Source: Robiginitomaculum sp. (lineage in GTDB: Bacteria; Pseudomonadota; Alphaproteobacteria; Caulobacterales; Maricaulaceae). From it: 64,000 nucleotides of DNA. Below the pieces are notes generated by a model. That model did not search any database, was not told where the DNA came from, and saw only the letters and a program-made list of their open reading frames with translations. The stretch is taken from positions 1-64,000 of the forward strand of contig JAUZSF010000005.1 of NCBI GenBank assembly GCA_030949705.1. The letters are read 5' to 3'. Shown here piece by piece: positions 1 through 18,223 of this stretch; the stretch's first letter is position 1, and every line of letters starts with the position of its first letter. A program made the translations under genes and the position numbers.

Positions 1-1259
1 CTACCCTCTTTTCTTCTGTTGCTACCGTGCCTGCCGTTCAGGCTTTGTTGGTGGCGCTGATATAGCAGTGTTTGCCAGTGCAATTGATGTGCGGTTACCG
101 GTGTAGCACAAAACTGCCAGATCGCTTTACCGGCCAAGCGCCCCTGTGACTTTGAGTTATCAGGGAAACCGATGCGAGAGCAATGCCAATAGGGCCAGCT
201 GGCGCTTCCTTTAGATGCTTGCTATTGGCCGAAAGCCAGATGCATTCATTCTGTCTTTCACTCCCACAATGGGTGAGTACGGGTGAGGACGTATTTGCAG
301 ACTTCATCTGCGATGTCGGTGCCAATGTTGGATGACGCATCCCCGGCGCCAATACCGCCTTTCTTACGATTGAAGCCATTCGCTGGGCCTGATATTCTCT
401 CTAACGGACTTACCCCGTCAGAGATGGTGTAATCGACGTTCCGCCGGTGGCACCGAGACATGACCGTTTCTGCGCCCAATATCGGCGTTGGCGAATCATG
501 CTGGTTCAGCAGATACGGCCGTGATGGTATCGGCTGAAATGCAGGGTTTTCAGCCTCTGGCCATGCGGCTACAACTTTGTGGGAGCTGGATGCTGCATCA
601 GTTTGCGCTCACGCCGCTGGGGCCTGATCCGAATTTGATACGGTGTGATCAGTGACACGCCCCCGATTTCTTTTTGCTGTCTTTGTTTGCTGATCAAACG
701 AGGGGGCACAGGTTTGCCTCTGGATCCGGCCAATGCGCGGGTGTTTGTACGCTTTAGCGATGCCAGCGGCACAGGGTTCGCTCGGATCGCCGGTGCGGCC
801 ATAACTGTGCCGACGGCAGCTGCGCTGAAAGCCCCGATGTCCGCTAAAGGCTGGCCGGCTCCCCGTTGGGCGCTGGGCGGTGATGGTGCGCGCCGGGCCA
901 AGGCATCCGCCATGCGCGGGTGCCTGCAGCACGCTGTATGTATGGCCTGATGGTACCGCCGCCCACACGCTACACCGGCAAGGGCGAACCGCCCCAGCCA
1001 TGCAATTATCCGCCAGGGAGCAGCCGGGACGTTTTATCGGCGTTGCACGCTCACCTGGTGCCCTGGCTGGACAGTTCAGCCTTGATCCGCCATTGGCCCT
1101 GGTTAATGCGATCCCAGCGACAATACCCGCCTTGATATGCTGGGGCGTCCATGACACCTAGAGGAGTTAACTGAGCCAAACTAACAGCGTAAGTCAAAGT
1201 TTAAAGTCAACAACAAACGTTAATGCAAAGACTTAAAAAGATAATTATATTGATAAATA
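1..1259. other. Unassigned stretch without a convincing gene
   Basis: I find no recognisable gene here. Several short overlapping reading frames exist on both strands, none longer than about 180 codons, and their translations look like random high-GC frames rich in Arg, Ala and Pro. The plus-strand frame at 645-950 contains PANARVFVRFSDASGT, which has a beta-sandwich look, but I cannot assign a family. Positions 1160-1260 are AT-rich. Because decayed genes follow directly, this is probably the inner part of a degraded accessory island. Confidence refers to the absence of an intact known gene. Confidence 0.5.
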
Positions 1260-1765
1260 TCAATGTGTTATGACTTTGCACTTATAACGTTGCATTGTTA
1301 ACGCAACGCACAACAAGCCCCTCGCCAACTCCGGGTTAAGCCTGCACGTCCGGCTGCGTTGATGGAGATGTCAGAGGGCGAGAAGGTGTTGCCCTTAATC
1401 AACGCGAGGATGCGACGATCTACGAGCGGTCTTGCGGGCTCCATCTTGTCAAAGACGAAGGTCTGGCGGTTGTTGTATTTGTCGCCATGAATGATGCCCT
1501 TGGTGGGATCATAGCCTTGGGTGATGATGTTGATGCGGGTTTGTACTTCCAACATGCCATAAGCGTAATTGAGCATGGCGTTGATTGGGTGAGTTGCACG
1601 GATGTTACGCGCTGTTTTGCGTGACCTTAAGGCGGAGCGTGAAGCATATCCAAGCCATTCATCTGAGATTGGGTGTTGATTAAGGCCTTTCCACTTGATG
1701 GCGATTGTGTTCCAGGCCCTAAAGTAGGCGACGGCACTTTTGCCCTCAAGGCCAAGCAAGCCACT
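1260..1765 (-). pseudogene. cas1: Truncated Cas1 endonuclease (C-terminal domain remnant)
   Basis: The translation shows the alpha-helical catalytic domain of Cas1, the integrase of CRISPR adaptation and of casposons. Visible hallmarks are the Glu of LLGLEGKSAVAYF, the block THPINAMLNYAYGMLE, the His of GIIHGDK and the Asp of FVFDKMEPARP. The His-Asp spacing of 13 residues equals that in E. coli Cas1 (H208/D221). The N-terminal beta domain is missing: homology starts near 1762, where a polymerase fragment begins on the other strand. Near 1345 a frameshift is needed to continue into the frame reading LNPELARGLL, which ends at 1260. The protein lacks its N-terminus and is broken near its C-terminus, so it is a pseudogene. 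I see no CRISPR array, cas2 or effector genes, so a solo Cas1 or a casposon-like element fits better than a CRISPR-Cas locus. Confidence 0.8.
1289..1308. repeat. Short inverted repeat CGTTGC-N8-GCAACG
   Basis: Six-base perfect arms (1289-1294 and 1303-1308) flank eight bases inside the 3' part of the cas1 remnant, next to the AT-rich 1160-1290 stretch. It may be an operator or chance. No second copy was seen. Confidence 0.3.
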
Positions 1766-1776
1766 CGCCGTGGTGG

Positions 1777-2742
1777 GTGAACTGGGCCTTTTGTGACACG
1801 GACAGTCTGGCCATCGCCAGGCCAAAAGGAATGAGCCGTGCAGAGTTTAGAAAACGCGCCCAAAATGTGGTGGATCAATTTACGGCCTTGAACCCCTACA
1901 AAAAGCCAGGATCAATCCTGCAAATCGAGGATGTAAATTATGCTGGTGGCACGAGCGAGTTACTTATGCCGCTTTATGTTTTTGCCATTTCTGCAAAGCG
2001 CTATGCGCTTTTTAATCTGGATGACCAAGGCAAGCCTATCATCAGAAAGGCCTCGGCCCACGGTCTAGGCCATTTGATGGCCCCTTATAGGGAAGATGAT
2101 CCCGCCTCTGGCATTCCTGATCCATTACGTGGCATTGGCGTTTCACGCTGGCAGTATGACTACTGGTACAAGCTTCTGGAGGCCGGGCTGTCAGATAGCC
2201 CAAGGCAATTATCACTCGACTACCACCCAAAGCTACAAGTGCCAGCCATGAGCCGCTATGGGGCAACCAGCCCGAAAATGTTAGACTGGATGAAGTCTCA
2301 TAATGAAGGTCGCGATTATAAAGATCAGATCAAACCCTTTGGCTTTATGGTCAGTTTTACCGCCAGAGATGGTGTTTATGCACAAGCGCCAGAGCCTGCC
2401 CTTGTCGACCCAGGCAAGCGCGGCAGGCCCATGGGAAAATACCCACCAAAACCAAGCGCACCCTTTGAGCGTGACCCAGCTAAAGCCGTTAGCTTGGCCT
2501 TTGATCGGATTACTGGCGAGCCCGTAGATCAATCCATGCTCAAAACCTATGCCGAAGCTCTAGCAAACTACCACCTACACCCCGAAGACAAGTTCGAAGG
2601 CGGTGACTATTATGATAGCGGGGAAACGCGTAGGCGGCACGTAAAAGCGGAGACTGTTGGGCTGATCGGCAAAGAAGCCAACCACGTGGGCGAAGGTGGG
2701 GAAGTTGATCCTACCGGTGATGGGGTGATGGAGTTCATATAA
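1777..2742 (+). pseudogene. C-terminal fragment of a family B DNA polymerase-like protein
   Basis: The first residues read WAFCDTDSLAIAR, which matches palm motif C of family B DNA polymerases (YxDTDS). About 60 residues on, YVFAISAKRYALFNL resembles the KKRY motif (K-x-Y) that precedes the thumb. The remaining 240 residues are polymerase-associated sequence I do not recognise, ending in an acidic tail. Everything before motif C (exonuclease domain, motifs A and B) is absent. The open frame begins at a GTG and can be extended upstream only to a stop at 1720. The fragment abuts the cas1 remnant head to head, so one deletion that removed the 5' ends of two divergent genes explains both truncations. 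In casposons, Cas1 and a family B polymerase are the defining pair, which is why I link them; bacterial plasmid or phage polymerases are an alternative origin. Confidence 0.65.
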
Positions 2743-2780
2743 CCAAATCGAATTAACGAGAATATTATATAATTAATTTT

Positions 2781-3525
2781 GGGGGGCTTGATTACAGATA
2801 GCAGATAAAGGCAATATATGTCATATGAGTTAGTGTTAGGAGACGGAGCAGGCTCTCACACTGCAAGCTATTCCGAAGTGAGCTTATCAAGTATTTTGTG
2901 CAGGTGAACTGCGCGCTTCTGCGGCACAATTAACGGGGGTAACTCGCAACACGGCGATCCTGTTTTAGCAAGTTGCGCAGCAGGTGATTTTCACTGAGCT
3001 AGCGGTAGAAACCCCGGAGATTTTCAGCGGCGAGATTGAGGTCGATGAGAGTTACTTTTGGTAGGACACCGAAACGGGCAAGCGAGGACGCGGTGCGGCG
3101 GGTAAGGTGGCGGTGTTCGGGCTTCTCAAGCGCAAGGGTCGTGTGCACTGTAGTCATCATCCCAAATGCTTCCACACAAACGCTTCTTCGCGTCATCAGG
3201 CGAAAGGTCAAGCCAGATAGCATCGTCTATAGAACCGATTGCTTTCGATCGTATGATGTTCTGGATGTTTCCGAGTTTCATCACCTGCGGATCAACCACT
3301 CAAAACTGTTCGCAGAGCAATCAAACCATATCAACGGCATAGAGAACTTCTGGAACCAGGCCAAACGCCACTTACGGGCTTATAACGGCATTTCCAAACA
3401 GCACTTTCATCTGTTCATCAAAGAGTGCGAGTGGCGCTTCAATTACCGGCCCGTTGCCAACCTCAGCAAAACCCTCCACAAATGGTGGTTCAAGTAATGT
3501 TTCAACCCTTAGCTATGTCAGCCCC
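2781..3525 (+). mobile_element. IS1595-family insertion sequence remnant
   Basis: A transposase relic lies between imperfect inverted ends: GGGGGGCTTGATTACAGATA at 2781 and, read on the minus strand from 3525, GGGGCTGACATAGCTAAG. Both start with a G run followed by CTtGA/CTGA, as in the IS1016 group of the IS1595 family. The flanks are AT-rich, but no clear 8-bp target duplication is visible, in keeping with an old or rearranged copy. Confidence 0.65.
2880..3497 (+). pseudogene. IS1595-family (IS1016-like) transposase, disrupted
   Basis: The reading frame from about 2894 gives AGELRASAAQLTGVTRNTA, then FSGEIEVDESYF, the first conserved Asp region of ISXO2-like transposases. In-frame TAG codons interrupt it near 2970 and 3061. 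Around 3140 the frame must shift to continue as VVIPNAST-like sequence, VYRTDCFRSYDVL (second Asp), and HINGIENFWNQAKRHL with the catalytic Asn/Glu region, ending in CEWRFNYRP. No N-terminal zinc ribbon is seen, as is usual for the IS1016 subgroup. With at least two stops and one frameshift the transposase is dead. Confidence 0.8.
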
Positions 3526-3778
3526 AAAAAATAAAATCTGTGGCAGTGGCGGGCTTAATGATATGGATGGACCAACGATACTTCTAATAAAGGATACCGC
3601 TACTCAAATTACCTTAAATATCGAGATACGTTACACAGATATTTTTGGAAAAAATCTCAGCGTACAGTATTTTTTGATGGCTTTAAGTGGTCCGGGGCAC
3701 AGTATCTCAAACTGGATTCTATTTCATCCACAACCAGGCGGCATGGGGAGTGTGATAGCAAACAATGATTCCGAATAG
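3526..3778 (+). pseudogene. C-terminal fragment of an unknown protein cut by the IS
   Basis: After the right IS end an open frame continues to a stop at 3778. It includes ITLNIEIRYTDIFGKNLS, which looks like real protein (alternating beta residues, YTDIFGK motif). I associate that motif from memory with small membrane-anchored hypothetical proteins of alphaproteobacterial accessory regions. No start codon, signal or N-terminal half is visible, and the matching 5' part is not found upstream of the IS, so insertion was accompanied by deletion or rearrangement. Function unknown. Confidence 0.4.
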
Positions 3779-3841
3779 GCCAGTTTGCTAAAACTGTATG
3801 TATTTATTTCTGGATATAACTATACCCCCCCTTGGCAAGGC

Positions 3842-3864
3842 GGGGATAAAACGGGGTTATCCCC
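3842..3864 (-). terminator. Hairpin GGGGATAA/TTATCCCC downstream of pyrF
   Basis: Perfect 8-bp arms with a 7-base loop lie 39 bases beyond the pyrF stop. No long T run follows on the minus strand, so this is a weak terminator candidate. A closely related hairpin occurs at 35991-36013. Confidence 0.35.
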
Positions 3865-3902
3865 ATCCTCTAAAGCGCGCCTATAATTATAGATTTTGAA
3901 AA

Positions 3903-4769
3903 TTAAGATGCCAGGGCACGGCTCAGCTCATCATGAGCTTTGGCAAGGGCGGCATCAAAAAGCTCTTCCCACTGGCGGGCGCCGGTGGCCTCTTGTGCGC
4001 CTTCGGGATACAGCACCCCGCGAGAGGAATTGACCACCACGCCCTGACCGTCACGGGCGGCGCTGACCGCATCTTTGGCACTGGCCCCTTGCGCCCCATA
4101 GCCCGGCACCAGAAAGGGGGAATGGGGCAGGATGAGGCGCAATTGGCGGGCTTCATCCGGGGCAGTGGCCCCCACCACCACCATCAGGGATGACCAGCCG
4201 CTTTGCGGGCCCCGGCGGTCCCGCGCAAACGGCGCCAGCGCCGCTGCAATGTGTTGGTATAAGGGTTTTCCATCCATCGACAGGTCTTCAAAATCGGCGG
4301 CACCGGGGTTTGAGGTGCGTACCAGCACAATAATGCCCTTATCCTGATCATCCGCCATGGCCAGAAAGGGCTCCAGCGTGTCCATACCCATATAGGGGTT
4401 CACGGTAATGGCATCGCACGGCACCCAGGCATCGGGGCCAAGATAGCCGCTGGCATAGGCACTGGCGGTGGAGCCAATATCGCCGCGTTTGGCATCCATC
4501 AGCACCAACAGGCCCCGGGTTTTGGCATGGACGCACAGCCGTGCCATCACCGCCAGACCGTCCGGCCCATAGCGTTCGAAAAAGGCAATTTGCGGTTTGA
4601 TCATGCCGCACCGGGTATCCAGACGGTCCAGAACGGCCATGAAAAAGGCCTCTATACCGGCCAGTCCGTCACCAAATAACGCTGGTATGCGCCCGGGGTG
4701 CGGATCCAGCCCGACGCATAGCGGGCCGTGGGTGGCAATGGTCTTTGCCAAATGATCGCCAAAATGCAT
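3903..4769 (-). CDS. pyrF: Orotidine 5'-phosphate decarboxylase
   Basis: Catalyses the last step of UMP synthesis (OMP to UMP) in the cytoplasm. The 288-residue length and the motif LVLMDAKRGDIGSTASAYA identify the longer 'type 2' PyrF; the Asp and Lys of DAKRGD are catalytic. GLDPHPGRIP near the N-terminus and the C-terminal VVGATAPDEARQLR and LVPGYGAQGA are TIM-barrel phosphate-binding regions. The start at 4769 follows a GAGGG ribosome-binding site seven bases upstream. It is the first intact housekeeping gene after the decayed island and lies 49 bp downstream of the DUF4149 gene on the same strand, so the two may be cotranscribed. Confidence 0.93.
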   Translation of the reverse strand: MHFGDHLAKTIATHGPLCVGLDPHPGRIPALFGDGLAGIEAFFMAVLDRLDTRCGMIKPQIAFFERYGPDGLAVMARLCVHAKTRGLLVLMDAKRGDIGSTASAYASGYLGPDAWVPCDAITVNPYMGMDTLEPFLAMADDQDKGIIVLVRTSNPGAADFEDLSMDGKPLYQHIAAALAPFARDRRGPQSGWSSLMVVVGATAPDEARQLRLILPHSPFLVPGYGAQGASAKDAVSAARDGQGVVVNSSRGVLYPEGAQEATGARQWEELFDAALAKAHDELSRALAS

Positions 4770-4818
4770 GATTTTCCCTCATGCCTGCGCAAATCACAGG
4801 CCCTTTCGGGAGGGCAGT

Positions 4819-5256
4819 TTAGCCAAATGCCAGAAAGCCGCAAGCGGCGATGAGAGCCGCATATTGCAAGGCATTGGCGCGCACGGCCTGGCCGCGGGCC
4901 TTGCGAAAATCGGCCAGCGCCAGCTCGTCCCCGGCCCGGGCCGCATCGCGGGCCTGTTCCAAGGTGGGCGTAATGGACCAGCCGGCCCACAAAAAGGCGC
5001 AGGCCGCAATGATCAATATGGCGGCCCCGGTAGTCTGGTTGCCAAAGGCCGAAAACAGCGCCGCGGCAGCGCTGAGCAGGGCAAACAGGTCAAAGGCGCG
5101 GGGAAACACGGCGCGGCTGAGCAAAAGGACGGTTTTGGAAGACCCGGCGCGTCCGGCAGCCGGAGCCACAAAAAAGGCAAAAAACGACATGGCGCCCAAA
5201 ATGGCGGCAGTTAAAACAAGGGCAATGGCGATCACAATCACTCTCCGGCGTATCAT
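4819..5256 (-). CDS. DUF4149 integral membrane protein
   Basis: A 145-residue protein with four predicted membrane helices (about residues 7-30, 50-72, 76-96 and 125-145). The early motif FFAFFVAPAAGRA, the following LSRAVFPRAF, and the late FRKARGQAVRANALQY match the pattern of DUF4149/TMEM205-like proteins (FFxFxVAPxxF ... LFPxYF ... FxRLHxxSxxLN). The function of the family is unknown. It is 98 bp from the DUF4167 gene upstream on the same strand. MAPEG was considered because of the size and four helices but lacks its Arg/Glu signature. Confidence 0.6.
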   Translation of the reverse strand: MIRRRVIVIAIALVLTAAILGAMSFFAFFVAPAAGRAGSSKTVLLLSRAVFPRAFDLFALLSAAAALFSAFGNQTTGAAILIIAACAFLWAGWSITPTLEQARDAARAGDELALADFRKARGQAVRANALQYAALIAACGFLAFG

Positions 5257-5354
5257 TTCGGTGCGCTTTTAGGGGTTTCGCACCCGTATGAGCACACCAC
5301 AGCAAGAGCCGCGCCGAAAACGCCGCGTTAAAGGAAAAGAGCAAACAATGGGGT

Positions 5355-5981
5355 CTAGGCGGTGGTTTCGCCGCCTACGTCCGGAGTGCTGGCAATATTG
5401 GCTTCGGCCTTTGGTTCCGCCTTGGATTCTGGCGCCGGGCGACGTACGCGCCGTCGGGGCGTACGGGCCGGTTTGGTCGTTGCCGGGGCGGGCACCGCTT
5501 CGGGGGTGACCACATCCATGGGACCGGTGCCATTGCCATGATTGCTTGCGCCATCCTTGGCCGGGGCCGGGCTGGTGGCCTCGCCTGTATTTTGGGTCGT
5601 TGCCAGCGGTGGGGTTTGTGTGGGCTGGGGCGCGTTTTCGGTCGAGGCGGCGGCGCGCTCCTGTTGTTGCTGTGCCTTGCGGGCATCATATTGCGCCTGA
5701 CGGGCGGCGCGCTGGGCGGCCTGTTCTTCTTCGCGGGCTTCGCGCTGTTCCTGTTGGGCGCGCATGACGCGGTAATAGTGTTCGGCAAATTGCAGATAAT
5801 TTTCGGCCATAACCCGGTCGCCGGAAAGGGAGGCATCGCGGGCCAATTGCTGATATTTTTCGTAAATGGTTGATACGGCCCCACGGACTTTAACGCCCGG
5901 CCCGTTGCTCTCCATCGCCCGGTTGGCATTTTGAGATTTGTTATGGTTGTTATTGCGGCTTCGGCCTCTTTGGCGTTTCAT
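5355..5981 (-). CDS. DUF4167 domain protein
   Basis: The first 80 residues are the conserved DUF4167 domain of alphaproteobacteria: a basic, Asn/Arg-rich start (RQRGRSRNNNHNKSQNANR), then VRGAVSTIYEKYQQLARDA and AENYLQFAEHYYRVMRAQ. The remaining 120 residues are low-complexity: a Glu/Gln/Arg-rich coiled-coil stretch, then Ala/Pro/Thr-rich sequence and a basic patch near RTPRRRVRRPA. RNA binding is inferred from composition only. The gene almost always lies next to prmC in this class, as here. An AAGGACAAC ribosome-binding site precedes the ATG. The 227-bp gap to prmC probably holds its own promoter; I see no clear boxes. Confidence 0.85.
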   Translation of the reverse strand: MKRQRGRSRNNNHNKSQNANRAMESNGPGVKVRGAVSTIYEKYQQLARDASLSGDRVMAENYLQFAEHYYRVMRAQQEQREAREEEQAAQRAARQAQYDARKAQQQQERAAASTENAPQPTQTPPLATTQNTGEATSPAPAKDGASNHGNGTGPMDVVTPEAVPAPATTKPARTPRRRVRRPAPESKAEPKAEANIASTPDVGGETTA

Positions 5982-6208
5982 GCCTGTTGTCCTTGAAATT
6001 CTCTATTTTGCATTGGCCTGTTCCATCGGGGTCCAGGTCTTTTTCAATGCGCTTCACTCTGCACTTGCAGTACTCAATAACGCGCGTCGTCCCGTCCACA
6101 GATCAAATTAAAAGCGGGTGGTCCAGACGGAAAGTCATATTTCTTTCTTGCGTCTTGGCAAGATACTAGCGTCCGGCGCGGCGCTTTCCAAGCGTTTTCT
6201 GCTGCGTT

Positions 6209-7078
6209 TTAGCGACTGTATCCACAGATTACGCGATCTCGGCCAGCAAGGTCCTGAAAAATTTCGATTTTGTATACGTTTTTCTGGTTCTGCGCCAAAT
6301 TGAACAGGGCCCTGCCCTGATCGGCGCCGATCTCTAAGGCAAAAAAACCACCGGGTTTCAGATAACGGGGAATGAGCGGAAAAATGGCACGATAGGCATC
6401 CAGACCATCGGCCCCGCCATCCAGGGCCAGCATCGGCTCATAGGCGCGCACCTCTGGTTCCAGCGTGCTGATCTGGGCGCTGGCAATATAGGGGGGGTTG
6501 GAGACCAGCACATCAAATGGGGCCATATCCAGTGCAGCCTCCCACGGACCTTCTATGAATTGCACCCGCTCTTCCAGATTCAGGGCTTGGGCGTTGGTCG
6601 TGGCTATTTTCAAGGCGCCGGGCGACAGATCCACCCCCAACCCCCGGGCCAGAGGGCGTTCGCTTAGCAGCGAAAAAAGAATGGCCCCGGTGCCAATCCC
6701 CAGGTCCAGGATATTGCAAGGATCATTTCCAAGAGCGCCCAGGGCCAGCTCGACCAGACGTTCGGTTTCCGGGCGCGGGGTCAATACATCGCTGGAAACG
6801 GCAAGGTCCAGCGACCAAAATCCCCAGGAGCCCAGAATATGGGATAAGGGCTCACGCCGTTCCCGGCGCGTGACCATGGTTTCCAATTGTGTCGCCGCGG
6901 TTTCATCAAGGCAGGCATCCGGATCGGCAAAAGCCGCCCCGTTGGCCAGAATGGCGCGCAACATATGGCGCACTTCGATGTCTGCATCTTCAATCTTGGC
7001 GGCACGCAGGCGGGCCGCCAACGCCCGGCGCACCTTGAACACCGGCACGCCGCTCCACGAAGAAACCGCTGAGTTCAA
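6209..7078 (-). CDS. prmC: Peptide chain release factor N5-glutamine methyltransferase
   Basis: Methylates the Gln of the GGQ motif in release factors 1 and 2, using S-adenosylmethionine. The 289-residue protein has an N-terminal helical domain (residues 1-90, including [15 protein letters not shown]), then a Rossmann fold with SAM motif [11 protein letters not shown] and the catalytic VSNPPYIAS. The C-terminus ends in [12 protein letters not shown], as usual. The start overlaps the prfA stop by four bases (ATGA), so enzyme and substrate are translationally coupled. The NPPY codons include a run of seven C, which here keeps the frame intact. Confidence 0.95.
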
Positions 7079-8166
7079 CTAAGATTCTCGTCTTCCATGG
7101 CGGCCAGTTTGGCAGCCTGGTCTTCGGCCAACAGGGCATCGATGACTTCACCCAGTGCTTCACCGGCAATCACCTTGTTCAGATTGTAAAGCGTCAGATT
7201 GATCCGGTGATCGGTAACCCGCCCTTGTGGGAAATTATAAGTACGGATGCGTTCCGAGCGATCCCCCGAGCCGATCTGGCCCTTGCGGTCAGCGGCGCGA
7301 ATTTCATCCACCCGGCGGCGCTCGGCCTCATACAGGCGTGCCTTTAGCACCTGCATGGCCTTGGCGCGGTTTTTGTGTTGGGATTTTTCGTCCTGTTGCG
7401 AGGCAACAATGCCGGTGGGAATGTGGGTGATGCGCACCGCTGAATCCGTGGTGTTGACCGACTGGCCACCGGGGCCGGAAGCGCGAAATACATCAATGCG
7501 CAGGTCTTTTTCCTCGATCTGAATGTCCACATCTTCGGGTTCGGGAAGCACCGCCACCGTGGCTGCCGAGGTGTGAATGCGCCCCTGGGTTTCCGTATCA
7601 GGCACCCGTTGTACCCGGTGCACGCCGGATTCGAATTTCAACCGCCCATAGGTATTCTCGCCCTTGATCGAGGCAATGACTTCCTTATAGCCGCCCATTT
7701 CACCTTCCGATGCCGAGACCAGCTCCATCTTCCAGCCTTGCAACTGGGCAAAGCGCTGATACATGCGAAAAAGATCACCAGCAAACAGCGCCGCCTCGTC
7801 ACCGCCGGTGCCGGCCCGCACTTCCAGCATGACCGGCGCGCCGTCATCCTTGTCTTTGGGCAGGAGCATGATTTGCATGGCCTGTTCGCGTTTGGGCAAG
7901 GCTGCTTTCAGCCCCTCCAGCTCTTCGCGCATCATGGCCTGCATATCAGCATCTTCGCCGCCATCGGCCAGCATGTCTTCCAGGTCGGCGATTTCACGGC
8001 GCATTTCATTTAACGCCCGCGCTGCCTTGGCCACCGGCATCAGGGCCGCATGCTCTTTGGAAAGGGCAACGATTTCATCACTGTCCGTGGTGGCCCCCAT
8101 GCGGGCCTCGATCTGTTCAAAACGATCAACCACCTGATCCAGACGGGATTGAGGAATATGGGCCAT
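7075..8166 (-). CDS. prfA: Peptide chain release factor 1
   Basis: Recognises UAA and UAG stop codons and triggers peptidyl-tRNA hydrolysis. Length 363 residues fits RF1. The catalytic GGQ lies in [12 protein letters not shown] at about residue 235, and the region near [15 protein letters not shown] belongs to the PCRF domain. It is a class I factor with its own start, so it is RF1 rather than the frameshifted RF2. Its start codon overlaps the ispG stop and its stop overlaps the prmC start, giving the operon ispG-prfA-prmC. Confidence 0.96.
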
Positions 8167-9293
8167 TATTGGTTTTCCTCTTTGGCAGCCCGAAGGCTCG
8201 CCGCCCGCGCTTCGACCAGTTCGACAATGTGTTCGATCATGGTTTCATTGCTGCGTTTATGGTCTGTCTTGCCGGCAAAATAGACCATGCCATGGCCCGC
8301 CCCGCCGCCGGTATAGCCAATATCGGTATAGGCCGCCTCGCCGGGGCCGTTGACCACACAGCCAATGATCGAAAGGCTGACCGGCTCGGCAATATGGGCC
8401 AGACGCTGTTCCAGGGTTTGTACGGTTTTGATGACGTCAAAGCCCTGGCGCGAGCAAGACGGGCAGGCAATGATGTTTACGCCGCGGGTGCGCAAGTTCA
8501 GGGATTTGAGAATATCAAAACCCACCTTGATTTCTTCCACCGGGTCCGCCGACAGGGACACCCGGATGGTATCGCCGATCCCGGCCCAAAGCAGCATGCC
8601 CAGACCGACTGAAGACTTCACCGTGCCGGATCTGAGACCCCCGGCTTCGGTAATGCCCAGATGCAGTGGGCAATCAATGGCCTCAGCCAATTGCTGATAG
8701 GCCGCCACGGTGAGGAAAGGGTCCGAGGCCTTGACCGAAATTTTATATTCGTGAAAGTCATACTCTTCCAGAATGGCCACATGGCGCAGGGCGCTTTCCA
8801 CCATGGCTTCGGGGCAGGGCTCGCCATATTTTTCCAGAAATTCGCGCTCCAGCGATCCGGCATTGACACCAATGCGAATGGCACAGCCATGATCCTTGGC
8901 CGCCTGGACCACATCGCGCACCCGGGCCGCATTGCCGATATTACCCGGATTGATGCGCAGGCAAGCCACCCCGGCTTTGGCGGCCTCGATGGCCCGTTGA
9001 TGGTGAAAATGAATGTCGGCCACTATCGGTACATTGGCGGCCTGTACAATGGCGGGCATGGCCGCGGTGGAATCCTTGTCCGGGCAGGAAATGCGCACAA
9101 TGTCGGCCCCGGCCTCTTCCAGCGCATGCACTTGTGCCAGGGTGGCCGAAACATCCGGGGTCGGCGTATTGGTCATGGATTGCACGCTGATTGGTGCATC
9201 ACCGCCCACCGGCAGGTTGCCAACCATAATCTGCCGGGAGGCGCGCCGCTCGATTGCACGCCAGGGGCGAAGCGCGCTTATAGCGTCGGTCAT
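8166..9293 (-). CDS. ispG: 4-hydroxy-3-methylbut-2-enyl diphosphate synthase
   Basis: Converts methylerythritol cyclodiphosphate to HMBPP in the MEP isoprenoid pathway using a 4Fe-4S cluster. The 375-residue length is typical of the bacterial enzyme. The TIM-barrel half starts with [19 protein letters not shown], and the cluster ligands are seen in [11 protein letters not shown] and [12 protein letters not shown], with the conserved C-terminal Glu in NGPGEA. The gene heads the ispG-prfA-prmC run and lies 62 bp after the RodZ-like HTH gene; that gene order is common in alphaproteobacteria. Confidence 0.95.
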
Positions 9294-9355
9294 CGCAAAT
9301 ACCGTTTCATTATATTAAAATCTGTGTGCAGGTTTGGCGTGCCTAAAGGCTGGCG

Positions 9356-9925
9356 TCAACTGTCATCCAGTGTGACATAGGTGATCGAAATATCCGGCAC
9401 ATCGCTCAGATCCTTGGAATTGGCCCAATCCGCCAGGGCTTCGGGAACTGGCGGCACCGCAGCAACGCTTTGGCTGGGAACACGCAGTCCATACCAGGTG
9501 GCCAGCCCCAGAGCACAGGCAATGACCAGAACCACGCCAGTACCTTTAGGCAGACGAAAATCCACCCAGGCTGGCGCCGGGCGTGGCGACAGATCGCCCA
9601 GCGGCGATACCCCGTCATAAAACTGGGCCTTGAACCCCGATACCATCTCTTCGGCATTCAGGCCCAGATGGTTGGCATAACAGCGCACAAAGCCCAGTGC
9701 ATAGGCCCGTTGTGGCAAGGCGGCACGATCCATGGATTCGATGGCTTCGAGATATTCAGTGCTGATTTTGGTGGCCGCGGCAACATCCGCAATACTTAAT
9801 TTGGCGCGCAGGCGGGCAAGACGCAAGGCATCGCCTATACCCTCGGAGGTCATTTGCGCTGCGCCACTGAACTCAGACTGATAGTGGAGTGCCCCCGAAG
9901 CATCCATGGTAATTTCCCTTTCCAA
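9356..9925 (-). CDS. RodZ-like membrane-anchored helix-turn-helix protein
   Basis: 189 residues. A Cro/RodZ-type HTH occupies about residues 30-95 (LRLARLRAKLSIADVAAATKI, then YLEAIESMDRAALPQRAYALGFVRCYANHLGL, the typical RodZ tail of the HTH). A single membrane helix follows at about 130-152 (GVVLVIACALGLATWYGL) and a short periplasmic tail of about 35 residues. RodZ links MreB to cell-wall synthesis; this version is shorter than E. coli RodZ and lacks its periplasmic DUF4115 domain, so I keep the name general. The 137-bp upstream gap to ptsP probably holds its promoter. Confidence 0.75.
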   Translation of the reverse strand: MEREITMDASGALHYQSEFSGAAQMTSEGIGDALRLARLRAKLSIADVAAATKISTEYLEAIESMDRAALPQRAYALGFVRCYANHLGLNAEEMVSGFKAQFYDGVSPLGDLSPRPAPAWVDFRLPKGTGVVLVIACALGLATWYGLRVPSQSVAAVPPVPEALADWANSKDLSDVPDISITYVTLDDS

Positions 9926-10062
9926 CCAAACCCTAAGCCCGAATCAATGATGCAGGCATCATTTTCACAAGCGTGACATTTTGGTCGCACGCAACATAAA
10001 AACCTAATATATGAATCAAATCAAGGTGATTCCCTAAATATGTTTACATTTGTGCAAGGTTT

Positions 10063-12348
10063 TTACAGGGCCAGGCCATTCTCTTGTGCATAGGCCAACA
10101 GATTTTCCCGTATCGAACCTTGTAATTCTCCCGTGATTTTCTCTGATCCATCTTCAAGCCACTTTGCAAGTTTGGTGCCAAGTGATTGTTGATCCAAAGA
10201 GAGAATCATTCGCTTGACCGGACCGATGGCCGCAGGGGGTACGGAAAGTTCAGTAAAACCAAGGGCGATCAGGATTGCCGCTTCGGCGCATTGCCCGGCG
10301 ATTTCACCGCAAACCGAAACCGGGCGCCCCGCCCCATTACAGAGTTTGGCAACATGGCCCAGCATCCGCAGCGCCCCAGGGTTGAGAATATCATAGCGGG
10401 TCGCCACGCGCGGGTTTTCCCGATCAGCGGCAAAGAAATATTGCATCAGGTCATTGGCACCCACCGAAACAAAATCGGCGACTTTAAGCAGGCCTTCCAA
10501 TTGCCAGACAATGGCCGGGGTCTCCACCATGGAGCCAACCCGCACCGAATCGGGGACCGCCTTGCCAAACCGCCCCATGCGTTTGATTTCCGCCTCCAGC
10601 AAGGCCCGCGCCGCGCGAAATTCATCCAGCGTAGTGATCAGCGGAAACATAATATTCAGCTCTCGTCCAGCAGTGGCCTCGATCAGGGCGCGCAGCTGGT
10701 AACGCAACAGGCCCGGCCGGTCGAGCGCCATGCGCATGGCCCGCCAGCCCAGCGCCGGATTGCTTTCGCGCTCGTGCGCCACATAAGGCAGCACCTTGTC
10801 GCCACCAAGATCGATGGTACGAAACACCACTGGCTTGTCACCAGCCGCTTCCAGTACATCGCGATAAAGCTGCATCTGTTCGTTCTGGCGGGGCAGATGA
10901 TCGGAGAGCAAAAACTGAAATTCGGTACGAAACAGGCCAATGCCCTCGGCGCCGGATTCGTCCAATTGCGGCAAATCCACCCGCAAGCCGGCATTCATTG
11001 ACAGGGTGATACGTTTGCCGTCGCGGGTCTGGGCCGGCTTGTCACGCAGGCGGGCATAGGCCACCCGGCGCTGGCGGCGATCACTGACCCGCTCGCGAAA
11101 TTCTTCTTCGGTGGCCGCATCGGGGCGGATAGAGACAATGCCCTGTTCCCCGTCCACCAGCACCGTATCACCGGTACTGAGACGATCGAGAAGGCCGGTC
11201 ACATGGCCCACCACCGGCAGACGCAAGGCACGGGCCACAATGGCAGCATGGGATGTGGGTGAACCTTCTTCCAGCACCAGGGCTTTTAATCGTGAACGAT
11301 CCAGCTCCAACAGGCCTGCCGGTCCCATTTCGCGAGCGATCAGCACCGTGTCTTCGGGCAACTCTTCCAGCTCTTCAATGGCCCCTAAATGACGCAATAG
11401 CTGGTTGGCCAGATCCTCCAGATCGTGCAGGCGTTCGCGCAAGTAAGGGTCTTTGGCGCTGAGCAGGCGGGCGCGGTGCTCGCCGCGTACGCGCTCGACC
11501 GCGGCTTCGGCGCTCAGGCCAGAACCTGCCGCCTCACACAAACGATCCAGCCAGCCCTGATCATTGGCAAACATGCGATAGGCTTCAAGCACCTCACGCG
11601 AGGGGCCGCCAAGGCGATTGCCCTTGCCCTGATAAAGCGCATCCACCGTGCGCCGCAGGTCCGCAATGGCCGTGCTCAGCCTTTGTTTTTCGGCCTCCGG
11701 GTCATCGGCAATAATGTCGTTATACACCCGCCCCGGGGCGTAAAGAACGGCCCGGCCAACGGCCAGACCATCAGAAATCCTGAGACCCGAGAGCACTTCG
11801 GCGCGGATCGGGCGCAGGGCCACTTTTTCCAGTTCACGCTTGCTGAGCAGATCACCCGAGGAGACAATTTCGGCCAGCACCATGGAGACATTTTGCAAGG
11901 CCTCCACATCGTCATCACTGTAATGGCGGGCTTCGCGGTTTTGTACGACCAGCACCCCCAACAACCGGCCGCCGCGCAATACTGGCACGCCCAAGAAGCC
12001 GTGAAACGGGTCTTCCTTGGTTTCGGGATGGAACGAAAAAGCCGCATGGCGAGGGGCATCGGGTAAATTCAAAGGCCGTGCATGGCGTACGGTTTCCCCC
12101 ACCAGTCCTTCGCCGGCTTCCAGCGTGGTAACATGAACCGCGGTGGGGGCCAGACCATGGGTGGCCCAAAGTTCCATGCTGGCATCGGGACGGCGCAAAT
12201 AGAGCGAACACACTTCGGCCTGCAAGTTTGAGGCAATCGCCTCTACCAGACCGTCCAGGCGACTTTGTGCAGAGCCTTCGGCCGCCATGATCTCGCGAAT
12301 CTGGCGGAGCAGCTTCCGATGCCCACCGTGTTGATGCGTATTGGTCAT
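10063..12348 (-). CDS. ptsP: PTS enzyme I, nitrogen-related (EI-Ntr)
   Basis: Transfers phosphate from phosphoenolpyruvate to NPr in the nitrogen-related phosphotransferase system, a regulatory relay rather than a sugar importer. The 761 residues show an N-terminal GAF domain (about 15-165, with RPDASMELWATHGL and GFLGVPVLRGG), the HPr-binding helical domain, the swivelling domain with catalytic His in GSPTSHAAIVARAL, and a C-terminal PEP-binding TIM barrel with LFRTEFQFL, NIMFPLITTLDEF and the catalytic Cys of SVCGEIAGQ. The start overlaps the lysC stop by four bases; the lysC-ptsP pairing is classical in alphaproteobacteria. Senses glutamine through GAF in studied relatives (family knowledge). 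Confidence 0.95.
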   Translation of the reverse strand: MTNTHQHGGHRKLLRQIREIMAAEGSAQSRLDGLVEAIASNLQAEVCSLYLRRPDASMELWATHGLAPTAVHVTTLEAGEGLVGETVRHARPLNLPDAPRHAAFSFHPETKEDPFHGFLGVPVLRGGRLLGVLVVQNREARHYSDDDVEALQNVSMVLAEIVSSGDLLSKRELEKVALRPIRAEVLSGLRISDGLAVGRAVLYAPGRVYNDIIADDPEAEKQRLSTAIADLRRTVDALYQGKGNRLGGPSREVLEAYRMFANDQGWLDRLCEAAGSGLSAEAAVERVRGEHRARLLSAKDPYLRERLHDLEDLANQLLRHLGAIEELEELPEDTVLIAREMGPAGLLELDRSRLKALVLEEGSPTSHAAIVARALRLPVVGHVTGLLDRLSTGDTVLVDGEQGIVSIRPDAATEEEFRERVSDRRQRRVAYARLRDKPAQTRDGKRITLSMNAGLRVDLPQLDESGAEGIGLFRTEFQFLLSDHLPRQNEQMQLYRDVLEAAGDKPVVFRTIDLGGDKVLPYVAHERESNPALGWRAMRMALDRPGLLRYQLRALIEATAGRELNIMFPLITTLDEFRAARALLEAEIKRMGRFGKAVPDSVRVGSMVETPAIVWQLEGLLKVADFVSVGANDLMQYFFAADRENPRVATRYDILNPGALRMLGHVAKLCNGAGRPVSVCGEIAGQCAEAAILIALGFTELSVPPAAIGPVKRMILSLDQQSLGTKLAKWLEDGSEKITGELQGSIRENLLAYAQENGLAL

Positions 12349-13586
12349 GTCCGGGCTTGGTCCAGCCCAAAGGCACAGTGCAGGGCGCGCACCGCCATTT
12401 CCACATCCGCTGCGGGGATCAGCGCACTGATCCGCGTTTCAGACGTGGCCACCGCACCGATGGCAATGTCATGAGTGCAAAGGGTTTCAAACATGGTGTG
12501 TGCCATTCGTGTTTGTGAGCGCAGGCCAATACCGATTACCGATACCTTGGCCATATCCGGGTCCAGCGATACCTCATCTAGCGCCAGTTTATGACAAGGA
12601 TCGGTCAGCAAAGCCAAAGCCTGCTGGGCATCACCCCGGCGCAGCGAGAAAACCAGCGTGCTCTCGTTTACGCGATTCCCCGGGCTTTGTACAATCAGAT
12701 CAACCTGTATGCCGGCCTCGGCCAGCACGGCAAAAACCCGCGTTAACGCTTCTGATCCGGCGGGCAGGTGATGGACCATAATACGCGCTTCATCACGACT
12801 GTAACTGATGGCGCGCACCATGGCACGCTCCAGGGCAGCGTGAGTGCCAATGGTGGTGCCGTCTTTGGGTACTTTTCCCGCAAAGCTGGAGAGAATGCGC
12901 AAGGTAACCGCTTTGGCCATGGCCAGCTCGACCGAACGGCTTTGCATAACCTTGGTGCCCTGGGATGCCATTTCCAGCAGTTCTTCATAGCTAAGATGCG
13001 CAATGGGTTTGGCCGTGGGCACCATACGCGGATCGGCGCTAAAGACTCCCTCGACATCGGTATAAATCTCGCATGCCTGGGCGCCCAGGGCAGCGGCCAG
13101 CGCCACCGCGCTCAAGTCCGAGCCACCGCGGCCCAATGTGGTGATGCGGCCATCAGGGCCCAGCCCCTGAAAACCGGCCACCACCGCAATGGTGCCGCCG
13201 TCAATGAGCGCCGCCAGACGATCAATTTCGATAGATTGTATTTTGGCGACGCCATGGTCACCATCGGTCAGTATGCCGGCCTGCCAGCCGGTATAGGAGC
13301 GGGCGCGCAGTCCAAGACGGCGCAGGGCCATGGCCAGAAGCGCCGCATTGATCTGTTCCCCGGCTGCCAGCACCGCATCGCCCTCATCGGGCCATTGCCC
13401 TTTGGGGTCGGCATTGGCGACATCACACCCCAGCTGGTCTGTCATACCCGCCGGGGCCGAGACCACCACAGCAATTGCCGCGCCCTCTTTCTGGCGTTCT
13501 GCAATCAGGGCGGCGCAGGCCTCAAGCCGAGACGGGTCGGCGCTGGATGTGCCGCCAAATTTCATCACCAGACGTGTCATCTTCAC
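12345..13586 (-). CDS. lysC: Aspartate kinase
   Basis: Phosphorylates aspartate, the first step toward lysine, threonine and methionine. 413 residues, typical of the monofunctional bacterial enzyme. The kinase domain begins with VMKFGGTSSAD and includes LGRGGSDLSAVALAAALGA and EIYTDVEGVFSADPR; two ACT domains occupy about residues 265-410 and would bind feedback inhibitors. No homoserine dehydrogenase is fused. It is the first gene of the lysC-ptsP pair and is divergent from ubiG across 65 bp, which must hold both promoters. Confidence 0.95.
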   Translation of the reverse strand: MKMTRLVMKFGGTSSADPSRLEACAALIAERQKEGAAIAVVVSAPAGMTDQLGCDVANADPKGQWPDEGDAVLAAGEQINAALLAMALRRLGLRARSYTGWQAGILTDGDHGVAKIQSIEIDRLAALIDGGTIAVVAGFQGLGPDGRITTLGRGGSDLSAVALAAALGAQACEIYTDVEGVFSADPRMVPTAKPIAHLSYEELLEMASQGTKVMQSRSVELAMAKAVTLRILSSFAGKVPKDGTTIGTHAALERAMVRAISYSRDEARIMVHHLPAGSEALTRVFAVLAEAGIQVDLIVQSPGNRVNESTLVFSLRRGDAQQALALLTDPCHKLALDEVSLDPDMAKVSVIGIGLRSQTRMAHTMFETLCTHDIAIGAVATSETRISALIPAADVEMAVRALHCAFGLDQART

Positions 13587-13651
13587 CCTGTTCGTGCCTG
13601 CTTTGCCGGTGTAGTTAGGGGGCGAAAACGCAAACGTCTAGGATTCCTTTC

Positions 13652-14419
13652 ATGGCTTCGCCGTCCCACACCAACGCGCCCCACACCACCAGCATTGATC
13701 CTGATGAGGTCGCCAAGTTCAGTGCCATGGCGGCGGAATGGTGGGATCCGCAGGGCAAGTTTCGCCCGCTGCATCAATTTAATCCGGTCCGGCTGAAATT
13801 CATTCGTGATACGGTTATTGCGCATTTTGGCCTTGATAATGACCAGCGCCAGCCTTTTGCGGGACTGCGGTTTCTGGATATTGGCTGTGGCGGTGGCCTC
13901 CTTAGCGAGCCCATGTGCCGTCTGGGAGCCGCCATGACCAGTGTGGACGCCGCCGAAGCCAATGTAAAAACCGCCAAGGTACATGCGGACGAACAGGGCC
14001 TGAAAATCGATTATCGCCATGGGGCTGCTGAAGACCTGTTGCTGAACAAAGAAGGTGATTTTGATGTCATCCTGAATATGGAAGTGATTGAACACACCGC
14101 CAATCCAGAAGCGTTTTTGCAGTCCTGTGCCGCCTTGTTACGGCCGGGCGGGTTGATGATCATTGCCACCATCAACCGCACGCCCAAGGCACGATTATTG
14201 GCAATATCCATGGCCGAGCGTGTATTGCGCTGGTTGCCGCGCGGCACCCATGAATATGACAAGCTGGTCCAGCCACAGGAAATCCGCCAGCCGCTGGAAA
14301 ACGCTGGCCTGCAGGTCAACGGCCCCTATGGGGTCAGCTATAACCCGTTCAGTGGCGTTTGGCGGCTTAGCCATGACAGCGCCGTCAATTATATGATGGT
14401 GGCCAGCAAAACCGCATAG
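13652..14419 (+). CDS. ubiG: Ubiquinone biosynthesis O-methyltransferase
   Basis: Performs both O-methylations of ubiquinone synthesis. The 255 residues contain the UbiG start region [20 protein letters not shown] and [13 protein letters not shown] motif I ([20 protein letters not shown]), and the segment [19 protein letters not shown]. The C-terminus ends with YMMVASKTA. The gene is single on the plus strand, ending 23 bp before the converging SapC gene. Confidence 0.95.
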
Positions 14420-14442
14420 ACAGCTTTGCTGGTCAGAGGTGA

Positions 14443-15254
14443 TTAGGCCTTGCCGGCCGGGGTGCCGATAGCATCGCCCGGTGCCGGGTTTTTCATTTCC
14501 TGGGCTACCAGACGTTGCCAGTTGGCCTGTGAAATCATTTGCGCATAAATCGCCAGTAAGCCGCCATTGTCGCGCAATTCCACAACTTTTTCAGCCGGCA
14601 GCTTGTTCAGCTTGTCCTGTGACAGGCCAACAAATTCGCCGATTTTCTGTTGTACAACCGATTTTCCATCGGGGCCCGGCTGAGGAATGGTGACATCATG
14701 GGTATCAAACAAGTCCAGCTCTTCCATCACTTTGACAAAATTACGGGCACCTTGGGTTTCCACTTCATAATTCTGGATAAATTCGATGGCGCGGTTGGTA
14801 AATTCTGATGGTTTGCCATCGACAAAAAATGGCTGTTCCGGCTTGTCGGAGATAACCGAGGCTTCGCGGTCAATGCACACCATCAGGTTTTCCGGGTCGC
14901 CATTATTGGTGGCAGGCACAAAAGGATAGCGGCGCAGGAAACCCGGGACATAAGCCCCATCGGGCATCAGGCCATCGGCATCCACATAGGCATTATGATC
15001 TTTTTTGCAGGCCCATCACCACAGCAGGGGTGCGGTCGGTACCGGCAAAGATAATCGGATAGCACAGGGCAGCAGCGGCAAATTCAGCAACCGTAACGGG
15101 GACAAGCTGGGTATTTTTTTGCAAAAGCAAAAGGGTTCACCGTATTGGGCGTAATGCCCAGATTACCATGAACATCGCTGTTGAGCGGCTCTGGCTTTTT
15201 GTAAAAGAGCAGATTGCCGGAAGTTTCAATCGTACCAGTATTGCTGTCCGCCAT
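14443..15254 (-). pseudogene. SapC family protein, interrupted by two frameshifts
   Basis: The intact frame would give about 270 residues. It starts at 15254 (MADSNTGTIETSGNLLFYKK) after a GGGGAAAATT upstream sequence. It then needs a shift at a T7 run (15114-15120) to read TQLVPVTVAEFAAAALCYPI, and another at a T6 run (15001-15006) to read NAYVDADGLMPDG and LRRYPFVPA, which are SapC hallmarks. Removing one base from each run restores the complete gene. SapC proteins were named after a Campylobacter S-layer locus, but in alphaproteobacteria they are usually near TonB receptors and peptide or tryptophan-halogenase loci, and their function is unknown. Either a recent pseudogene or two homopolymer errors. 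Confidence 0.75.
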
Positions 15255-15355
15255 AATTTTCCCCAATTGAGTAATGGATAGTGCAGCGGGCGTCTTAACG
15301 GATCGGGCCATGCCTGCCAACCGCGCAGATGCAGATAATTCTCCCCCATAACGCG

Positions 15356-15391
15356 AAAAGGCCGGCCTGTGTCATCACAGGTCGGCCTTTT
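15356..15391 (-). terminator. Rho-independent terminator downstream of ompW
   Basis: A strong hairpin AAAAGGCCGGCCTGTG / CACAGGTCGGCCTTTT with a four-base loop starts 14 bp past the ompW stop. The T-rich end on the minus strand follows the stem. With A and T runs on both sides it could act in both directions. Confidence 0.8.
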
Positions 15392-15404
15392 GCGGGGAAA
15401 GTGA

Positions 15405-16046
15405 TCAGAAGCGTTTGCCAATCCCGACCCCGACAATCCAGGGATCCAGATCCACATTGCCCCTGACAATGCCAAGAGAGCCCGCATCAATGGTGACCTT
15501 GGTGTTGAGGAACAGTTTTTTTACATCAACATTCCAGAACCAGTCATCATTCATTTTGATGTCTACACCGGCCTGCAAGGCCACCCCGACATTGTCGCCA
15601 TAATGAATATTGGCCAGGGCCGACCCTTTGGGCAGGTCCGATGCATAGGAAACCGTATAATTGATGCCGGCCCCCAGATAAGGATTAATCACCGCCTCAG
15701 GCGCCATGTGATATTGCAATAACAAGGTTGGTGGCAAAAGCCAGACATCGCCCAGATCAAGATTTCCCAGCGCCGTCGCCTTGGCCGAGACATTATGATT
15801 GCTGGTGGCGAGAATAAGCTCCATGGAAACATTGTCGTTAAAGAAATACGAGATATCGAGTTCGGGCACATAAGACTGATCAACCGATGCCCGGCCCCCA
15901 ATAGGCGTTATGGTTGAGCTAACATCCGGTAAAACGGCCAGCGCGCGGACCCGCACCTGCCATGGCCCATAATCCGTGGCCATCGCCACCCCAGAACTTA
16001 GAAAACTGGTGGCCAGCGCCACCATAGCGATTTTTGAAAGCTTCAT
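15405..16046 (-). CDS. OmpW family outer membrane protein
   Basis: 213 residues with a signal peptide (residues 1-23, cleavage after VAMA) and an eight-stranded beta barrel ending in the aromatic IVGVGIGKRF (terminal Phe, as BAM substrates have). Family marks are DYGPWQVRVRALAVLPD, PELDISYFFNDNVSMELILA, LLPPTLLLQYH and the late FLNTKVTIDAG. OmpW porins pass small hydrophobic molecules and respond to stress or metal supply. The gene lies downstream of the ZnuD-like receptor on the same strand (143-bp gap) and ends in a clear terminator, so it may be read from the zinc-controlled promoter or its own. Confidence 0.88.
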   Translation of the reverse strand: MKLSKIAMVALATSFLSSGVAMATDYGPWQVRVRALAVLPDVSSTITPIGGRASVDQSYVPELDISYFFNDNVSMELILATSNHNVSAKATALGNLDLGDVWLLPPTLLLQYHMAPEAVINPYLGAGINYTVSYASDLPKGSALANIHYGDNVGVALQAGVDIKMNDDWFWNVDVKKLFLNTKVTIDAGSLGIVRGNVDLDPWIVGVGIGKRF

Positions 16047-18193: not shown

Positions 18194-18223
18194 GTTTTTC
18201 CCTCCGCCGGTCCTAAAGAGCAG

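Follow-up and report, generated by a model that had tools for sequence, protein, structure and literature searches.

The window, a stretch of 64,000 nucleotides, forms the start of contig C5 in the 2.83-Mb, 29-contig assembly of a Robiginitomaculum sp. Its first part holds the remains of a cas1 gene and of a family B DNA polymerase gene (polB) on opposite strands, preceded by part of an adhesin gene and followed by a terminal repeat and host DNA:

1..1161, plus strand: indel-rich 3' part of a giant surface-adhesin gene, cargo of the casposon, running past the contig start (BLASTN)
1298..1779 (ORF 1298-1825), minus strand: 3' part of a casposon cas1 (casposase) gene (Pfam PF01867, casposon Cas1 profile, comparison with contig C7, tree)
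1774..1785, no strand: deletion junction between cas1 and polB (comparison with contigs C4 and C7; GGGT at both breakpoints in the C4 copy)
1780..2742 (ORF 1777-2742), plus strand: 3' third of a casposon polB, from motif C (FCDTDS) to the stop (PolB profile)
3036..3497, plus strand: fragment of an IS1595-type transposase between polB and the right end (Pfam PF12762, E 8.2e-19)
3801..3828, minus strand: terminal repeat with the terminus GGGGTATAGTTATATCC..., at which the casposon ends on the right (motif search)
3829..3842, no strand: predicted target-site duplication, located downstream of pyrF and containing the short hairpin CCTTGGCAAGG (from the position of the terminus)
3903..4769, minus strand: host flank, a pyrF-like gene of 288 aa, which we take to be pyrF (ORF)

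The minus-strand reading frame matches Pfam PF01867 (Cas_Cas1; E 2.7e-20, positions 146-266 of 283), in agreement with the original prediction of a Cas1 catalytic domain on this strand with E, H and D present and an H-D spacing of 13; this C-terminal domain lies at window 1346-1774. On a casposon Cas1 profile of 361 positions, the fragment covers 198-344 (E 1.2e-65) and positions 1-197 are absent. The catalytic residues are retained although the protein is truncated, and their equivalents E209, H295 and D308 are invariant in 16 full-length Cas1 relatives. Compared with the C7 copy, the window copy has its final cas1 codons in a shifted frame. The top PDB match of the Cas1 profile is 6OPM (E 3.5e-36; next Cas1 2.8e-25), the casposase of Methanosarcina mazei (PMC6977970). 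With the window fragment alone, four other Cas1 or Cas4-Cas1 structures outrank 6OPM, and the best ncbifam match is a generic cas1, below its cut-off. PF01867 is matched four times in this genome, at three places, each near a contig start (C4, C5 and C7), and these casposon pieces are the sole Cas1 matches in an assembly that is 92% complete. No spaced direct repeats of at least 22 bases were found in window 1-20000.

The plus-strand fragment, which had been read as a polymerase opening at motif C (FCDTDS), aligns with positions 590-910 of a 919-position PolB profile built from 15 full-length relatives (E 4.8e-146), and retrieves no Pfam match when searched alone. It is 96% identical in protein sequence to the C7 copy and 86% to that of the congener G242. 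Its N-terminal part is missing, as are two conserved motifs present in the consensus, DFKSMYP and NSTSYG. Its motif C, CDTDS, is the one that names the PolB group containing the casposon polymerase of Aciduliprofundum boonei (PMC7544198). Both profiles are thus matched in their C-terminal portions only, as expected from the proposal that the two genes had lost their 5' parts, and the breaks do meet within 1762-1785, the last base of cas1 lying at about 1779 and the first of polB at 1780. Judging from its sequence, the window copy is unable to make an active Cas1 or PolB. A chance origin of the fragments is excluded because homologous copies exist.

Two of these copies are in the same genome. 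The longer, frameshifted copy on C4 contains the approximately 4.25 kb that is missing at the junction, C5 being equivalent to C4 without C4 3958-8208, which is consistent with the suggested reduction by one deletion. In this long form, cas1 (frameshifted) lies on the minus strand, and the plus strand carries ORFs of 215, 199 and 96 aa and a frameshifted polB. The 199-aa and 96-aa ORFs, which have orthologues in relatives, were labelled HTH and HNH, respectively, following the gene lists of PMC4046053. In Pfam, one of five HTH-labelled relatives shows weak HTH-domain matches and three of five HNH-labelled relatives, together with the protein of the congener G287, show HNH matches, all of them below the cut-off. 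The copy on C7 has the same junction as C5, base for base, next to a different left neighbour, an HlyD-type gene. The C5 and C7 copies differ at 61 of 1573 aligned positions; these differences are clustered and lie on both sides of the junction, with none between 2161 and 2727, and the C5 patch at 1935-1995 is unlike both C4 and C7. The dN/dS between the two copies is 0.15 in polB and 0.10 in cas1. Values below 1 were considered as a sign of selection on the truncated genes, a reading dropped in favor of recombination among diverged copies because the differences are clustered.

C5 1-1785 and C4 are separated by 67 gap openings, most of them before 1162, compared with 13 between the C4 cas1 region and G287 and two between C5 1164-2735 and C7. 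Consensus errors at contig ends are likely and, therefore, the frameshifts located there are no proof of decay; part of the apparent decay in the first 1.1 kb and in the C4 copy may reflect poor assembly. On the host side next to pyrF, C4 and C5 have a 69-bp stretch in common that is 96% identical. A single insertion present in two strains may underlie both copies, or they may have arisen by duplication.

To the left, window 1-1785 aligns with C4 2222-3958 at 87.6% identity by BLASTN, and the same adhesin gene precedes cas1 on C4. The left flank on C5 was initially considered as host DNA; this was dropped when the adhesin gene proved to be cargo. In the genome G299, the 3' end of the adhesin gene adjoins a cas1 piece on contig C5, and on C15 a distance of 394 bp separates a terminal inverted repeat (TIR) from the start of a related adhesin gene. 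On C92, a 46-bp cas1 tail and next to it a TIR come after the adhesin gene, which represents a second, larger internal deletion. Casposons may move adhesins in this genus. To the right, the 16-base TIR core has one match in the 64-kb window, without mismatches, where two were allowed and 0.01 matches were expected. The end motif is found four times in the genome at up to two mismatches, being mismatch-free at the right ends of the C4, C5 (3801-3827) and C7 copies, and C7 starts exactly at GGGGTATAG. Therefore, from the position of the motif and the GGGGTATAG terminus, the window element ends at 3828. The extent originally predicted, 1260-2742, was too small, as the element begins before the contig start and continues to this right terminal repeat. 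The pyrF-like gene beyond it is matched in 17 of the 18 genomes of the genus, this one included, where it occurs in one place, on C5; no casposon end was seen in the 260 bp beyond pyrF in G299 and G303.

Intact copies are available from two congeners, G287 and G307, and contain the full-length divergent cas1-polB pair, the TIRs and the target-site duplication (TSD) that the original prediction had proposed to look for; together with the longer C4 copy, they support its link to casposons. In G287, an inverted pair ending GGGGGTATAGTTATCTCC surrounds a 9.2-kb element (score 41.5, compared with a maximum of 14.5 in 10 shuffles), and G307 harbors a complete copy of 10.1 kb. Direct repeats of 18 bp (G287) and 22 bp (G307) border the two elements, and none of 2000 shuffles per element reached these lengths; when positioned relative to the GGGG terminus, the TSDs measure 16 bp (G287) and 15 bp (G307). 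The end motif is present, with up to one mismatch, in 5 of the 18 genomes of the genus and the reversed pattern in none. Local alignment gave a clear TIR pair in G287 only, among 16 loci, since the conserved end is short, and was replaced by motif and TSD searches. The G307 casposon also carries a SIR2-like gene (L066 12428-13330; below the Pfam cut-off), a possible defence cargo.

The distribution of these elements is broader than anticipated. A cas1-polB pair in an alphaproteobacterium had been expected to be unusual; the PolB alignment matches 21 of 398 sampled genomes of the order, and the casposon HenMar-C1 of the alphaproteobacterium Henriciella marina, assigned to family 3, was already published among the bacterial casposons in 2014 (Krupovic et al., 2014, PMC4046053). 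The window PolB fragment itself is matched in 17 of 299 genomes of the order, its own included; polB is present in 4 of 18 genomes of the genus, and 3 of 385 were matched in a wider draw of the class. A genome contig scan confirmed 120 relatives, of which the best 80 were kept. These 80 include members of Hyphomonadaceae, Maricaulaceae, sphingomonads, Acetobacteraceae and Nitrosomonas, and further of Actinomycetes, Acidobacteria, Chloroflexi and Nitrosopumilaceae; viral contigs and plasmids yielded no relatives. Far from never occurring together, the two genes are associated in 71 of these best 80 polB loci, on opposite strands in 68 of the 71 (they share a strand in L116, L119 and L135). An HTH-labelled gene accompanies them in all 71 and an HNH-labelled gene in 67. 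Nine polB loci have no cas1; on the side of polB where it would lie, the contig extends over no more than 3.2 kb in eight of them and over 10 kb in one (L147).

In the Cas1 tree, a quick reconstruction from casposon-region rows and CRISPR Cas1s of the genus, the window Cas1 falls into a nested group (starred) together with Robiginitomaculum sp. OFTM175 and OFTM401. The 65 rows from casposon regions and seven CRISPR Cas1s of the genus (one type I-C, four type II, one RT-Cas1 and one untyped) fall on the two sides of one branch (support 90, with a long-branch warning). The window Cas1 is therefore placed with casposons and apart from the CRISPR Cas1s of the genus, rather than inside a CRISPR clade, with the caution imposed by this warning; the PDB ranking of the profile points the same way. 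The PolB tree differs. OFTM234 is the partner of the window PolB (100, starred), with Marinicauda and Alkalicaulis joining next (89), whereas OFTM401 and OFTM175 group (99, starred) with Hyphomonas, Henriciella and Hirschia. At the DNA level, the C4 copy (L006) is 86% identical to that of G287 (L034) over 3469-4620 and approximately 65% identical over most of polB, the drop being located at C4 4620. As this drop matches the different positions of Cas1 and PolB in the trees, lineages appear to have swapped the two halves of the element, cas1 and polB, as modules.

We are therefore highly confident that window 1-3828 is a dead, internally deleted bacterial casposon, similar to family 3, that was inserted on the downstream side of pyrF, the target probably being a sequence able to form a hairpin. 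The anatomy of the locus, its homology, the junction and the right TIR are directly established, as are the TIRs, TSDs and palindromic targets of relatives described below; the window copy itself presumably reached its present site by transposition. Both casposon genes lie together in the window, and the hosts are bacterial, as in family 3, with a PolB that is related to that of family 2 as compared by its CDTDS motif. An ordinary CRISPR cas1 lying by chance beside a polymerase remnant would agree with the generic ncbifam match and with the CRISPR Cas1 structures that outrank the casposase; nevertheless, we give it next to no credence, as the only Cas1 matches of the genome are casposon pieces, no repeats of an array were detected in the 20 kb searched, the protein is separated from the seven CRISPR Cas1s in the tree, long-branch warning included, and such a cas1 accompanies polB in 71 of the best 80 of 120 relatives.

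MITE-like elements are non-autonomous, internally deleted transposons that keep both ends and occupy several sites with TSDs. The deleted form of the window could similarly be a casposon parasite with intact ends, mobilized in trans by a full-length copy. The internal deletion, the identical junction on C5 and C7 with different left neighbors and with the 61 differences of 1573 positions on both sides, the right TIR retained in both, and the other, larger deletion between cargo and TIR on C92 of G299 are all in line with this idea. Indeed, an engineered mini-casposon entered the M. mazei chromosome through chromosomally expressed proteins, with clean integration in one of three resistant populations (PMC10359463). 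However, the deleted copies on C5 and C7 are seen with their right ends only, and no paired ends (at most one mismatch) were found in the 18 genomes of the genus besides the intact elements of G287 and G307. The clustering of the differences and the C5 patch indicate that recombination could have spread the deletion, and the 69-bp host-side stretch common to C4 and C5 also argues against this explanation. We therefore regard this explanation as possible but the less probable one. A junction created by the assembly, from repeat copies misjoined at contig ends, is improbable. All three copies do lie at contig ends, C5 1-1161 and C4 are rich in indels and C7 begins exactly at the terminus, but the junction is found on two contigs that differ close by on both sides (1738-1761 and 1839-1888), and both fragments are open reading frames in C5 and C7. 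A domesticated remnant, in which truncated Cas1 and PolB were still made and selected, is even less probable: the mostly synonymous differences between C5 and C7 and their low dN/dS could be seen in its favor, but recombination involving diverged functional copies accounts better for these clustered differences, PolB is devoid of its N-terminal part with DFKSMYP and NSTSYG, Cas1 is devoid of its N-terminal half, and the C5 cas1 end is out of frame.

The wider set of relatives permits an analysis of where these casposons insert. An inverted pair of the motif GGGGTATAGNNATNTC was sought outside both genes in the 71 cas1-polB loci (from the best 80 of 120 relatives), and was found in 12, 22 and 32 of them at no, up to one and up to two mismatches, in contrast to 0 loci in each of three shuffled sets and with the reversed motif. 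In 31 of the 32 paired loci, the two ends are immediately bordered on their outer sides by an exact repeat of 14-17 bp (14 bp in 14 loci, 15 bp in eight, 16 bp in four and 17 bp in five). The end pair of each locus was chosen by TSD score, with one candidate pair in 25 of the 32 loci and two in seven; when ends of different loci were paired, a score of at least 12 was reached in 4 of 992 cases, and again in 4 of 992 when the control was equally maximized. A motif-free search (TSD of at least 12, at least 10 of 16 TIR matches) recovered 46 of 71 loci, compared with 3 of 213 shuffled ones. Both the inverted GGGGTATAGNNATNTC motif flanking cas1-polB and the palindromic TSDs described next are new in this wider set.

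Many of these TSDs are palindromic, for instance CCGGCCTTCGCCGG. The rejoined empty site of each locus was scored for dyad symmetry and compared with random positions of the same locus. Under a strict tolerance of 0.5 bp, a palindrome centered on the TSD was detected in 22 of 31 loci at p<=0.05, and in 20 of 31 at the 1% level; the mean dyad score was 6.77 at the center versus 0.48-1.11 at shifts of 4-24 bp. L138 was outside this test, having no TSD in the motif search and a probably misplaced one in the motif-free search. A looser test with a 1-bp tolerance was applied to the motif-free set after the removal of L141 and L158 from the 46 loci for their poor TIR match, and gave 31 of 44 at p<=0.05 and 29 of 44 at p<=0.01. 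The nearest intact relatives of the window, G287 (L086) and G307 (L088), fail the strict test (p 0.58 and 0.076) and pass at the 1-bp tolerance (p 0.0025 and 0.028).

The 13 failures of the looser test comprise L094, L109, L115 and L138 from the alphaproteobacterial main group, L108, L144 and L153 from a separate Cas1 clade, two Actinomycetes (L118 and L122), L150 (Acidobacteria), L159 (Eremiobacterota) and the archaeal L160 and L163. When 19 loci were scanned for tRNAs, three of the non-palindromic sites were found at tRNA or tmRNA 3' ends, the archaeal L160 and L163 at tRNA-Ser and tRNA-Arg and the actinobacterial L118 at a tmRNA, which corresponds to the known type of target. The non-palindromic TSDs of L108, L144 and L153, which group with L141 in the Cas1 tree (support 83), are preceded by GTTCTT or GTTCTG, suggesting from the sequences another class of target.

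Four A or four T occur within 10 bases of the TSD in nine of the 31 loci, as in intrinsic terminators (e.g., L089, AAAAGGCCCCAGCGAAAGCCGGGGCCTTTTT). L102 (Henriciella) and G095a, whose genus code is that of the H. pelagia genome, have one 44-bp palindromic repeat in common with different flanks and, therefore, a REP-like family seems to be targeted too. According to rough ORF calls, the genes facing the 44 sites are convergent in 12, tandem in 10 and divergent in four, while 14 sites lie inside an ORF and four were not classed; therefore, these positions do not show a strictly intergenic rule. As a hold-out, seven elements were fetched, of which three (G782, G747 and G433) were already in the 80-locus set. 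Three of the four left have TIRs and a TSD, two of them with a centered palindrome (p 0.0017 each); G006 lacks one at the preset tolerance and G095b, with polB in two frames, has no detectable ends. The two positives are not fully independent, since the site region of G702 is also that of L099 and the 44-bp repeat of G095a recurs in L102. Altogether, hairpins seem to be the target in much of this bacterial lineage, as the TSDs are often centered palindromes, with adjoining A/T tracts in nine of 31 loci; the sites reported for archaeal casposons are instead the ends of tRNA or EF-2 genes. A palindrome-centered target rule was not stated in casposon titles or abstract openings among the matches listed.

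Regarding the window copy, the element is followed after 3828 by CCCTTGGCAAGGCG, in which the hairpin CCTTGGCAAGG is centered at 3835, the center of a TSD of 13-14 bp. Its dyad score is 6.5, and a score of 6 is reached by 0.2% of 3000 random window positions; as this score partly uses the C run of the element itself, the hairpin is only consistent with the target rule. It is a weak one, with a 4-bp stem, and no intrinsic terminator was called at this predicted target. As the left end, with its TIR and TSD, lies off the contig, the target of the window copy is a predicted one.

These observations can be combined in a mechanism, whose biochemical steps would be analogous to those of the A. boonei and M. 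mazei casposases. Casposase integration elsewhere duplicates 14-15 bp of target, the A. boonei enzyme requiring only 3'-TCCCC and incorporating this pentamer, with which its TIR terminates at the 3' end (PMC6614799), and the M. mazei casposase is a tetramer on DNA (PMC6977970). In this lineage, Cas1 as the integrase would likewise join the 3' ends of the element (...CTATACCCC-3') to the two strands of a 14-17 bp target, mostly a palindromic stem-loop resembling an intrinsic terminator or a REP element, which gap repair would then duplicate. PolB and the small conserved HTH- and HNH-labelled proteins would presumably serve copying and excision. The window copy has lost about 4.25 kb between short GGGT matches, and with them the beginnings of both cas1 and polB as well as the intervening genes. 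Tentatively, and with less than even confidence, we propose that these casposases recognize their target by its folding, integrating symmetrically on the dyad of a hairpin that is thereby duplicated; this would offer a direct precursor, older than Cas2, of the palindromic CRISPR repeats, and deleted copies that keep both ends may ride in trans.

The enzyme of CRISPR adaptation has been proposed to derive from casposons, whose reported target rules come from a few archaeal elements. Bacterial casposons with exact ends show a second rule, in which the duplicated target is often a palindrome centered on the insertion, a link between Cas1 and palindromic repeats that lies outside CRISPR; in addition, a terminator or REP palindrome would be a place where insertion is safe. 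CRISPR adaptation relies on Cas1-Cas2 and its repeats are often palindromic. Both systems thus have in common the Cas1 chemistry and the duplication of a short, often palindromic target, but no array was found in the 20 kb searched here, the duplicated unit is 14-17 bp and no role of Cas2 is indicated. The present elements resemble family 3 in their bacterial, including alphaproteobacterial, hosts, in the combination of cas1 with a PolB akin to the one of family 2 and, in the intact relatives, in TIRs and TSDs; HNH and HTH genes are putatively shared, here by weak labels. In contrast to HenMar-C1, the window copy is internally deleted and has an adhesin cargo, and thereby adds a deletion derivative found on two contigs. 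In the text available to us, the 2014 account describes intergenic sites, tRNA ends and the aEF-2 gene, with TSDs of 1-27 bp (median 15), and gives no hairpin rule (PMC4046053); the relatives described here share the GGGGTATAG terminus and many are inserted on palindrome dyads. The family 2 casposons of A. boonei and M. mazei have in common with them the Cas1 integrase and a TIR starting with GGG, with TSDs of 14-15 bp (PMC6614799, PMC6977970, PMC10359463). The M. mazei TIR begins GGGATATAGGTAACTC (PMC10359463), of which 13 of 16 bases are as in G287, counted by eye. The preferred sites of family 2 casposons are tRNA 3' ends, the determinants being located upstream of the TSD (for A. boonei, the palindromic T-psi-C region according to a review), whereas here the TSD itself is often the palindrome.

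Several further casposon ends were encountered in these genomes. G299 contains four unpaired ends (L067-L070), two of them beside giant adhesin genes. In G287, the right end of the intact element faces another casposon end head to head across its hairpin (L034 10967-11050), possibly as a tandem insertion or a remnant. The fourth end motif of the window's genome, with two mismatches, is unpaired on C16 (L052 1475-2607), directly after a gene that we take to be clpX-like, and is followed by a DUF4145-DUF5655 gene (PADLOC family PDC-S18, E 1.8e-32) and a transposase-like ORF; it is perhaps the left end of another copy. Finally, a variant end, GGTATAGTTAAGTCC, is common to G242 and the window's genome (L071 3863-3888, L072 8888-8913), and in G242 a cas1 tail lies 1.4 kb from it.
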